This document shows, piece by piece, positions 14,731-42,145 of a DNA stretch of 64,000 nucleotides; the stretch's first letter is position 1; each line of letters starts with the position of its first letter. The notes beneath the pieces are model-generated. The model was not told the origin of the DNA, searched no databases, and was given only the letters and a program-made list of their open reading frames with translations. A program made the position numbers and the translations under genes. The stretch spans positions 62,001 through 126,000 of the forward strand of contig NZ_CP094974.1 of assembly GCF_022869805.1 (NCBI RefSeq), given 5' to 3'. This DNA comes from Halosolutus halophilus (lineage in GTDB: Archaea > Halobacteriota > Halobacteria > Halobacteriales > Natrialbaceae).

Positions 14731-14792
14731 ATTTCTGCCCACTCACGAACGCGACTCGCTACGCTCGTCGGTTAGAGTTTGCGGGCAGAAAT
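14731..14792. repeat. Inverted repeat directly behind tRNA-Pro
   Basis: ATTTCTGCCC (14731-14740) and GGGCAGAAAT (14783-14792) are perfect inverted copies, the second touching the tRNA 3' end. It could form a trailer hairpin in the tRNA transcript or mark a recombination boundary. Confidence 0.7.
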
Positions 14793-14864
14793 GGGCCGGC
14801 GCAGATTCGAACTGCGGTTACGGCCACCCGAAGGCCGAAGGATACCAAGCTACCCCACCGGCCC
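14792..14864 (-). tRNA. tRNA-Pro (anticodon CGG)
   Basis: Read on the minus strand the 73 bases fold as a normal cloverleaf: acceptor GGGCCGG pairs with CCGGCCC, discriminator A; D arm around GGGGTAGCTTGGTATCC; anticodon stem CGGCC/GGCCG closing the seven-base loop TTCGGGT, so the anticodon is CGG (reads CCG, proline); T arm CGCAG-TTCGAAT-CTGCG. No intron and no encoded CCA. The T-loop has U54, the target of Pus10/TrmY whose genes are within 4 kb. Confidence 0.93.
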
Positions 14865-35738: not shown

Positions 35739-35896
35739 CGGAACCGGGGCCGGAGTCCGATCGGCATCTAGCTGTCAGCAGCTGATAATGTTAATTTAAA
35801 ACAATTATAAATTCGTACAGTTACGGGATAAACGTTCTCGACTCGGTTTTCGATCGGATAAACTCGGGTTAAATTCGGGAGAATTCGACGTAAGAC

Positions 35897-36133
35897 TCCT
35901 ATACCGTCTCCCCCGTTCAAGTGGATCCCGCCACAAGTCCCGGGTGGAGGTCGACGGGCAGACCCCACCGAAGGCACCCCACAGCCTTTCCCCGTGACTT
36001 CCAGCAACCCCACCACAGCACCCTTCCCCCCACCATTGCCACACCGTTCCCGTTCGACGCAGGTTCGCTGCACCGGCCTGCATCGTCCTGCGGTTCTGGC
36101 ACCGGGGCGTCCCCGCGCCCCGGATGCGTTTTC
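35897..36133 (+). ncRNA. Candidate structured non-coding RNA (unassigned)
   Basis: On the plus strand a promoter-like GGTTAAATTCGG (about 35868-35879) lies some 25 bases before 35897. The region then shows GTGG-ATCCCG-CCAC (35921-35934), a strong stem GGTGGaGGTC / GACCCCACC around an eight-base loop (35943-35969), a long C-rich single-stranded middle (about 35970-36050), a CGCAGG / CCTGCG pairing (36058-36092), and ends in a GC-rich hairpin with a TTTT tail (36102-36132). No reading frame is convincing. I compared it by eye with haloarchaeal 7S RNA and RNase P RNA as I know them and found neither signature, so it is unassigned. Confidence 0.45.
36102..36132 (+). terminator. GC-rich hairpin with T-tail
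   Basis: CCGGGGCG (36102-36109) and CGCCCCGG (36116-36123) pair perfectly around TCCCCG, followed by ATGCG and TTTT (36129-36132). It could end the candidate RNA on the plus strand and also the convergent transcript from 36936. Confidence 0.6.
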
Positions 36134-36150
36134 GTACCCGGAAGACGTGG

Positions 36151-40411: not shown

Positions 40412-41389
40412 TCACCGATCGCCGTCGCCCGATACCGAGATCGGCCACAGATCGCCGCCGTCGGGATTCGGTCGATAGCCGTCCCCGACGGCGACCGTGA
40501 GCGTCTCCGCGTTCGTCTCGAGGTGCAGCGTCTGGGTCTCGAGCATTTCCCCGTCGAGACTGTACTCGACGGCGTCCCGACGGCTCTCGAGAACGAGCGA
40601 TGGCGTCCGCCGCCGGACGATGTGCGTGCTGTCCGCGCCGAACAGCCCCTCGAGGGCCGCACCGCCGAGCAGATTGGTCGTCGCGGCGTCTTCGACGATC
40701 GTCACCTCGAACAGGCCGTCCTCGACGTTGGCCTGCGCAGCGCGCGTCCCGGTGAACCGCCGGCAGTTTCCGACCAGGACGAACAGAGCCTCGCCCTCCC
40801 AGGTCCGTGCCACTTTCCCGTTCGGTCCCGCGGCCGTCTCCACCCGTAGCGGGAGCGAGTCGAACGACCCGATCGTCTTCAGGGTGTTCTTGACGTACGC
40901 GAGCACGCCCAACTCCTGTTTGCTCTCCGAGGTCGTCTCGCTGCTCGCTTCGGCGGTGACGCCCCCGACACAGGAGTTGACGAAGACCCGGTCGTTCGCA
41001 ATTCCGATGTCGATCGATCGGCGTCGGCCGTTCTCGATCACGGAAAACGCGTGTTCGATCCCCTGGATCCCGACGTTCGTCGCGAAGTTGTTCCCCGTCC
41101 CGGTGGGGACGACGGCGACGGTCGTCGCGTCGAACGCGTTCGCGGCAGCGATCCCGTTGACGACCTCGTTGAGGGTCCCGTCGCCGCCGACCGCGGCGAC
41201 GAGGTCGGCGTCGGGCGCGGCGTCACGGGCCATGCGCTTCGCGTCACCGCTATCCTCGGTCTTTCGAATCTCGAAGCCGTGCTTGGCTGCGAGTTCGATC
41301 ACGTCGTCGACGTGGTCCTCGCTCCCGCTTACGGGATTGAGGACGAGAACGCGTTCGTTCGCTCCGTCGGGTCCCATGCTGCGATTCAT
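40412..41389 (-). CDS. Diacylglycerol/lipid kinase family protein
   Basis: 325 residues. The kinase domain has the GGDGTLNEV motif (VAAVGGDGTLNEVVNGI), preceded by RVLVLNPVSGSEDHVDDVIE, and TVAVVPTGTGNNFATNVGIQ; the C-terminal beta-sandwich holds ALFVLVGNCRRFTGTRAAQA and VEYSLDGEMLETQTLHLETN. Family members phosphorylate lipids or related alcohols (YegS, BmrU types). ATG at 41387-41389, with an in-frame ATG four codons later, is the start. It is divergent from the PHP gene with 42 bases between, so promoters must overlap. Confidence 0.9.
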   Translation of the reverse strand: MNRSMGPDGANERVLVLNPVSGSEDHVDDVIELAAKHGFEIRKTEDSGDAKRMARDAAPDADLVAAVGGDGTLNEVVNGIAAANAFDATTVAVVPTGTGNNFATNVGIQGIEHAFSVIENGRRRSIDIGIANDRVFVNSCVGGVTAEASSETTSESKQELGVLAYVKNTLKTIGSFDSLPLRVETAAGPNGKVARTWEGEALFVLVGNCRRFTGTRAAQANVEDGLFEVTIVEDAATTNLLGGAALEGLFGADSTHIVRRRTPSLVLESRRDAVEYSLDGEMLETQTLHLETNAETLTVAVGDGYRPNPDGGDLWPISVSGDGDR

Positions 41390-41431: not shown

Positions 41432-42145
41432 ATGTACGCCGTCGACCTGCATACGCACACGCGGTTCTTCCACGGGCGTCGCCCTCTCGGGGATCGGTTC
41501 GACCCGCTCGGCGTTCGACTGCTCGCCACGGCGGCCCGGCGTCGCGGCCTCGACGGGATCGCGACGACCAACCACGATTACTACACGGCGTTCGACCCGT
41601 CCCCGGACGTCGAAACGCTGCCGGGGATCGAGATCACGACCGATCGCGGCCACGTCCTCGTCGTCGGCCCCGATCCGCCGGCGGCGACGAAACCCGGCGC
41701 GCTCTCGCCGCGAGAGGCAGTCGCGCTGGCACACGACTGCGACTGCGCCGCGATCGTCGCCCACCCGTACCGCAACAGTACGGTGCGGGAACTCGAGGAC
41801 GTCCCGTTCGACGCGATCGAGGTCAACGGTAAACACCCGCGTTCGCAACCGCTCGTCGAGGAGTTAGCCGGCGAGCGGGACCTGCCACTGGTCGGCGGCA
41901 GCGACGCCCACTACCCCTTCGAGGTGGGGCGGGCGTACACGGTCGTCGACGCCGATCGGCTCACGCCCGAGTCGGTCGTCGACGCGATCCGCGACGGGAA
42001 CGTCAGCGCGCGCGTCTCCCGCTCGTGGCTCGATCGAACACTGCGCCGGGGGTATCAGGCGATTCACCGCCGCAAGCACGTGATCGACGCGATCGAACGG
42101 CCGACGCCCGGCGTGGGGACCCCGCCGGGAGAGGACGGAACCTGA
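41432..42145 (+). CDS. PHP domain phosphoesterase
   Basis: 237 residues. The PHP metal sites are in order: AVDLHTHTRFFHG, then GIATTNHDYYTAFD, CAAIVAHPYR, GSDAHYPFEVGRAY. PHP phosphoesterases hydrolyse nucleotides or phosphorylated sugars; the C-terminal extension (RSWLDRTLRRGYQAIHRRKH) is basic. Substrate unknown. Start ATG at 41432, 42 bases from the divergent lipid kinase start; promoters overlap. Confidence 0.87.
   Translation: MYAVDLHTHTRFFHGRRPLGDRFDPLGVRLLATAARRRGLDGIATTNHDYYTAFDPSPDVETLPGIEITTDRGHVLVVGPDPPAATKPGALSPREAVALAHDCDCAAIVAHPYRNSTVRELEDVPFDAIEVNGKHPRSQPLVEELAGERDLPLVGGSDAHYPFEVGRAYTVVDADRLTPESVVDAIRDGNVSARVSRSWLDRTLRRGYQAIHRRKHVIDAIERPTPGVGTPPGEDGT

Follow-up and report, generated by a model that had tools for sequence, protein, structure and literature searches.

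A conserved noncoding RNA with its own promoter class is predicted downstream of guaA-DUF7126 in Natrialbaceae

Comparison among haloarchaeal genomes shows a conserved, structured element that lacks coding potential and follows a promoter of its own class, located in an intergenic region of Halosolutus halophilus that an earlier note, made from the letters of this one genome, had singled out as a candidate new structured RNA. That proposal is supported by compensatory base changes, syntenic conservation, a dedicated promoter, absence from Rfam 15, and the presence of separate genes for the 7S and RNase P RNAs. On balance, we lean toward a reading in which the element would be an independently transcribed, conserved noncoding RNA of ~185 to 190 nt that acts in trans through a C-rich strand. 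Positions are those of the window, meaning the whole 64-kb stretch of DNA that was analyzed.

Results

Genomic location and distribution of the element

The element lies on the plus strand between the gene for DUF7126, which is the third gene after pyrG and guaA, and a convergent gene for 5-formyltetrahydrofolate (5-FTHF) cyclo-ligase. These Pfam-based gene calls agree with the intergenic position behind pyrG-guaA-DUF7126 given in the earlier note. A DNA search recovered homologs, nearly always in single copy, from 113 of 125 Natrialbaceae genomes representing 25 of 29 genera, and close homologs are found in Natrinema, Natrialba, Natronococcus, Natronorubrum, Halopiger, Halostagnicola, Halovivax, and other members of the family; the few scattered matches in bacteria appear to be due to chance. 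When 392 genomes of the order were searched with a covariance model of the core element (R1), 88 had a match, all of them Natrialbaceae. The neighbors are also retained. DUF7126 is upstream in almost all copies read, usually after guaA, and the FTHF cyclo-ligase gene is downstream in most. An origin from a plasmid or phage was considered and rejected, as the element has no match in either collection and its synteny is stable.

The sequence search missed two genera (g2 and g27), whose divergent versions were located via synteny. These share a layout wherein TTSAAGT is followed by 23 nt, GGAG, a stem of other sequence, and a C-rich tail. The stem of the g2 version is GGAGACCACG/CGTGGTCTCC, which differs from the core-family stem sequence. 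Behind DUF7126 in genus g7 and in two g2 genomes, no version was seen. The only tRNA found in the window is a tRNA-Pro (anticodon cgg) at 14792 to 14864 on the minus strand.

A predicted phased-repeat promoter precedes the RNA

Across 70 genomes, the region from 35813 to 35959 is nearly free of insertions and has few gaps, though many of its positions vary, and it reads as the promoter region of the RNA. Four elements can be distinguished.

35829–35838, plus strand: upstream box TRAACnnTCT; found family-wide at a fixed distance to the repeats, and absent in the most divergent genera.
35859–35899, plus strand: direct repeats phased at ~10.5 bp (TAAACTCGGG/TTAAATTCGGG/AGAATTCGAC/GTAAGACTCC), presumed activator sites; A-periodicity, an alignment of 70 genomes free of insertions and nearly free of gaps, and comparable arrays that precede unrelated genes in other families.
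35902–35908, plus strand: TACCRTC promoter element; conserved, with the consensus TACGGTC in other families.
35916–35922, plus strand: TTSAAGT, putative core promoter element and TATA-box equivalent, judged from its spacing to GGAG and to an ATG at +33 nt in other families.

The frequency of A in this region oscillates with a 10.4-bp period (permutation p = 0.002). The A/T element GGTTAAATTCGG at 35868 to 35879, described in the earlier note as promoter-like, is present as one unit of this phased array and is not likely to be a TATA box. TTSAAGT, which is TTCAAGT in this species, precedes GGAG by exactly 30 nt in 69 of the 70 genomes. Such a constant spacing, maintained without conserved sequence or pairing, fits a core promoter element.

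The position of the RNA 5′ end can be estimated from genes of other haloarchaeal families that carry the same promoter. In at least 16 of these, the first base of TTSAAGT is followed by an ATG at a distance of exactly 33 nt. These small-protein genes would be leaderless or nearly so, and their start codons would therefore place the transcription start ~29 to 33 nt after TTSAAGT. At the locus examined here, this distance leads to the first base of a conserved stem, and thus to a predicted 5′ end at ~35945/35946. The 5′ end at 35897 favored by the earlier note is probably ~49 nt too far upstream, inside the promoter-like region.

In its own genome the locus is the one strong match to the promoter class (R3 E-value of 3.9e-18, with the next at 0.04, both values being rough), and the strict spaced promoter pattern is unique to it. 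The sptA promoter of Natrinema J7-2 was considered as a known equivalent and rejected because its described architecture differs. For CdrS, the literature searched gave its motif as a text description only.

Conserved structures of the predicted RNA

The RNA most likely begins at ~35945/35946, extends for ~185 to 190 nt, and ends after a short T-run. Its features are as follows.

35945–36134, plus strand: predicted extent of the noncoding RNA gene, with transcript ends estimated; conservation, covariation, promoter geometry, and lack of coding.
35945–35958, plus strand: 5′ strand of the 5′-terminal stem (TGGAGGTCGACGGG); 96.6% of alignment cells are paired, and in divergent genera the sequence is replaced with pairing kept.
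35991–36003, plus strand: 3′ strand of the 5′-terminal stem (CCCGTGACTTCCA); pairing in the alignment.
36003–36041, plus strand: nearly invariant C-rich strand, predicted to be mostly unpaired; alignment conservation and fold prediction.
36056–36084, plus strand: hairpin B, with stem 36056–36064/36076–36084; compensatory changes at nine of nine pairs.
36102–36132, plus strand: 3′ GC hairpin with TTTT, terminator-like; eight perfect pairs, with many GC/AT exchanges that keep the stem in relatives.

Folding is favored on the plus strand (z = −2.35, versus +0.88 for the minus strand), and pairing starts at the first base when the RNA is folded from 35945. Among 54 sequences, 11 pairs of the 5′ stem and hairpin B are changed on both sides, compared with 5.3 in shuffled controls, none of 500 of which is as high; these shuffle counts ignore relatedness and are not probabilities. 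The same two stems have 93.9% of their cells paired, versus 38 to 55% when one strand is slid. Nine of the 11 doubly changed pairs sit in hairpin B. Most of the formal covariation comes from this hairpin because the 5′ stem barely varies in the core family, where it is nearly invariant and six of its 13 pairs never change. Comparative support for the 5′ stem comes instead from the divergent genera. The covariance analysis proposed in the earlier note thus finds that both stems covary in relatives. A joint alignment with the most divergent RNAs (A2) misaligned their 3′ halves and was excluded from model building.

The stems drawn by eye in the earlier note survive to different degrees. The stem at 35921 to 35934 is present in this species and not retained in relatives. 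That at 35943 to 35969 also exists here, yet it is unconserved (mean z of −1.0, and about 0 in divergent genera), and it shares its G-rich strand with the conserved stem 35945–35958/35991–36003, so the two compete. A bistable switch between them was considered and rejected. The complementarity is strong in this species but is not maintained in divergent genera. Structure is indeed present at 36058 to 36092, where it is better read as the covarying hairpin B. The perfect 8-bp hairpin CCGGGGCG/CGCCCCGG (36102–36109/36116–36123) stands as described, with TTTT at 36129 to 36132, five bases past the stem. The T-run is poorly conserved among relatives. In many species, TGCCA (36037–36041) and TGGCA (36097–36101) might form an extra stem around hairpin B. 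This pairing is absent from some genera and was left out of the pair counts.

The C-rich middle that the earlier note took to be single-stranded is near-invariant, and fold prediction agrees that it would be mostly unpaired, with a mean unpaired probability of 0.73 at 36004 to 36046 versus 0.38 elsewhere. Its best-conserved 17 nt have no extended antisense target in the same genome. The corresponding target pattern yields five chance-level matches at three mismatches, compared with 14 for a reversed control. Long antisense pairing by this segment is unlikely because an extended complementary target is lacking in the genome.

The element matches no Rfam family

A search of the window with Rfam 15 gave no match at the gathering score, and permissive thresholds gave nothing credible (the top match, ncS16, scored 13.9 bits against a cut-off of 48). 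The novelty suggested in the earlier note therefore stands, as does its judgment by eye that signatures of 7S and RNase P RNA are lacking, since neither RF01857 nor RF00373 matches in the window. The genome encodes its 7S RNA (C1:1177981–1178292) and its RNase P RNA (C1:4651762–4652133) elsewhere. No Rfam match identifies the element as a C/D or H/ACA guide RNA. A cis-acting riboswitch or leader was considered and rejected, as the next gene, for 5-FTHF cyclo-ligase, is convergent and not on the same strand. The open-access literature searched yielded no description of the element or of its promoter class.

By type, the nearest studied RNA is sRNA132 of Haloferax volcanii, an intergenic, monocistronic, 138-nt trans regulator with its own promoter and conserved neighbors (PMC6560208). 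The Natrialbaceae element is likewise a predicted intergenic haloarchaeal RNA of similar size with conserved neighbors and no conserved reading frame, and comparison points to a promoter of its own, a conserved region of a distinct class. However, sRNA132 is found in the genus Haloferax alone and is driven by a classical BRE/TATA promoter (PMC6560208), whereas the Natrialbaceae RNA spans at least 25 genera, has a phased-repeat promoter, and exhibits no sequence relation to sRNA132 that we could see. Archaeal 7S (SRP) RNA (RF01857) is similar in being a stable haloarchaeal RNA with an upstream promoter element, CTTAAGTA, that somewhat resembles TTSAAGT, but its gene is elsewhere and does not match the locus. 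RNase P RNA (RF00373), another structured RNA of this genome, is likewise encoded elsewhere and does not match the locus. We rate the element as a new family, distinctive in its promoter and distribution, within a known kind of RNA, the archaeal intergenic RNAs.

The promoter class occurs in other haloarchaea

Two sequence models were used to examine the promoter class more broadly. R2, a sequence-only model, had the Natrialbaceae region as its training set, with the divergent versions of g2, g27, and g10 included; R3 is a broader model whose training set consists partly of R2 matches, and the E-values of both are rough. ATG positions are part of neither. R2 recovered the same repeat array and TTSAAGT from further families of haloarchaea, in most cases ahead of genes for small proteins whose N-termini, judged by eye, resemble signal peptides. 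Of 293 genomes, 166 carry the class according to R3 at a rough E-value of ≤ 0.001, and these cover 58 of 88 genera. The link between this promoter class and genes for secreted-looking proteins comes from these other families. When five proteins with the same promoter were compared with Pfam and NCBIfam, none scored above the cut-off except one DUF7096 protein (L226). Many of the proteins at loci L215–L231 and L272–L309, outside Natrialbaceae, are small and acidic, begin with what resembles a signal peptide, and carry a recurring motif similar to PDHVSDIH...LGDAVSGLTPG.

Promoter matches without a convincing downstream gene occur in families f3, f5, f6, f8, and f17. Noncoding loci, including those of Natrialbaceae, have a longer 5′-terminal stem than coding loci (means of 8.6 and 4.8 bp; p = 2e-6, or 6e-5 when f17 counts as a single locus), which is individually significant in only 7 of the 20 noncoding loci. 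Ten f17 genomes have a consensus fold consisting of a 5′ stem and a 3′ hairpin, wherein five pairs are changed on both sides with no net covariation bonus, and the structural support for these loci is modest. The apparently noncoding loci of other families have a similar architecture, and their sequences are not convincingly alignable with the Natrialbaceae RNA. Some have DUF7126 in the neighborhood (L215, L272, L273, L277, and L307). Elsewhere, a gene for a small secreted-looking protein is found under the same promoter near DUF7126 (L216, L292, and L299) or near the FTHF cyclo-ligase gene (L275, L276, L279, and L296).

Discussion

Alternative explanations

Several other explanations bear on what this region is and where its RNA begins. 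One that we consider doubtful is that the RNA serves as a scaffold or structural component of a ribonucleoprotein, with a C-rich strand that binds protein and engages in no RNA pairing. Near-invariance of ~38 nt across the family exceeds the length of a typical pairing seed and would suit such a role, as would the lack of an extended complementary target; against this, the comparable strand in other families differs in sequence, which a conserved protein partner would not readily tolerate. It is unlikely that the boundaries of the earlier note are correct, such that 35868 to 35879 is a TATA box, the RNA starts near 35897, and TTSAAGT lies inside it. A conserved TTAAAT does occur ~25 nt upstream of 35897, but it is one unit of the phased array, and the leaderless start codons follow TTSAAGT by ~33 nt and not the A/T unit by ~25. 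Moreover, the nucleotides from 35897 to 35944 have neither conserved pairing nor indels.

We consider it highly improbable that the element is a processed 3′ UTR of the pyrG-guaA-DUF7126 mRNA with no promoter of its own. It is directly downstream on the same strand, as such a 3′ UTR would be, but the conserved promoter precedes unrelated genes elsewhere, and the noncoding loci L219, L222, L280, and L306 are not beside guaA or DUF7126 within the stretch examined. Least probable of all is that the region encodes a small protein. This possibility is raised by the small secreted-looking protein genes that occupy the same slot under the same promoter in some other families, and by a 95-codon frame with a GTG start that overlaps the core in this species. 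However, the length of the conserved core modulo 3 falls into all three classes (14, 22, and 34 genomes), so the frame shifts between species, and 16 of 70 genomes have GCG in place of the candidate GTG. There is also no ATG near the predicted RNA start, and covariation typical of RNA is present. A protein from the conserved core is thus very unlikely, in keeping with the earlier note, which found no believable protein.

A possible trans-acting RNA in an envelope or secretion regulon

Returning to an independently transcribed, trans-acting RNA, we envision a mechanism in which a multimeric activator would read the TnAAnCCGG repeats phased at ~10.5 bp, with TTSAAGT serving as the core element, and plus-strand transcription would initiate at ~35945/35946. 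The predicted RNA would start directly with a stem, followed by an exposed C-rich strand, the covarying hairpin, and the GC-rich 3′ hairpin. Once the regulon is switched on, the RNA may act in trans through its C-rich strand, which could form short seed duplexes with G-rich sites of other transcripts or bind a protein. As an outcome, envelope or secreted products would have their expression tuned in step with the other members of the regulon.

In other families the promoter class is associated with secreted-looking proteins, which suggests that this regulon may concern the envelope or secretion. More tentatively, the new promoter class could define a haloarchaea-wide regulon wherein, according to lineage, either a C-rich structured RNA or a small secreted protein is expressed from the conserved slot beside guaA-DUF7126, and the RNA would represent a deep, fast-diverging class that tunes the envelope or secreted proteins of the regulon. 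Bacterial envelope-stress small RNAs such as MicA and RybB are RNAs that share one regulon with envelope protein genes. They offer a possible working analogy only, with no homology and no sigma factor or Hfq logic shown.

To our knowledge, archaeal regulatory RNAs conserved as widely as a large family are rare. The RNA predicted here is near-universal in a whole family, sits at a constant genomic location, and has an unusual promoter, whereas the studied sRNA132 is limited to one genus. Cultured genera, Natrinema and Natrialba among them, carry the element, so deletion and 5′-end mapping are directly feasible. Beyond Natrialbaceae, the promoter class suggests that haloarchaea have an as yet undescribed regulon of secreted-looking proteins, along with a regulator that would read repeats phased at ~10.5 bp. 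In one genome (G063), two copies of the promoter region are closely spaced within positions 41308 to 41578 of contig C14, where locus L201 corresponds to 41449 to 41578.
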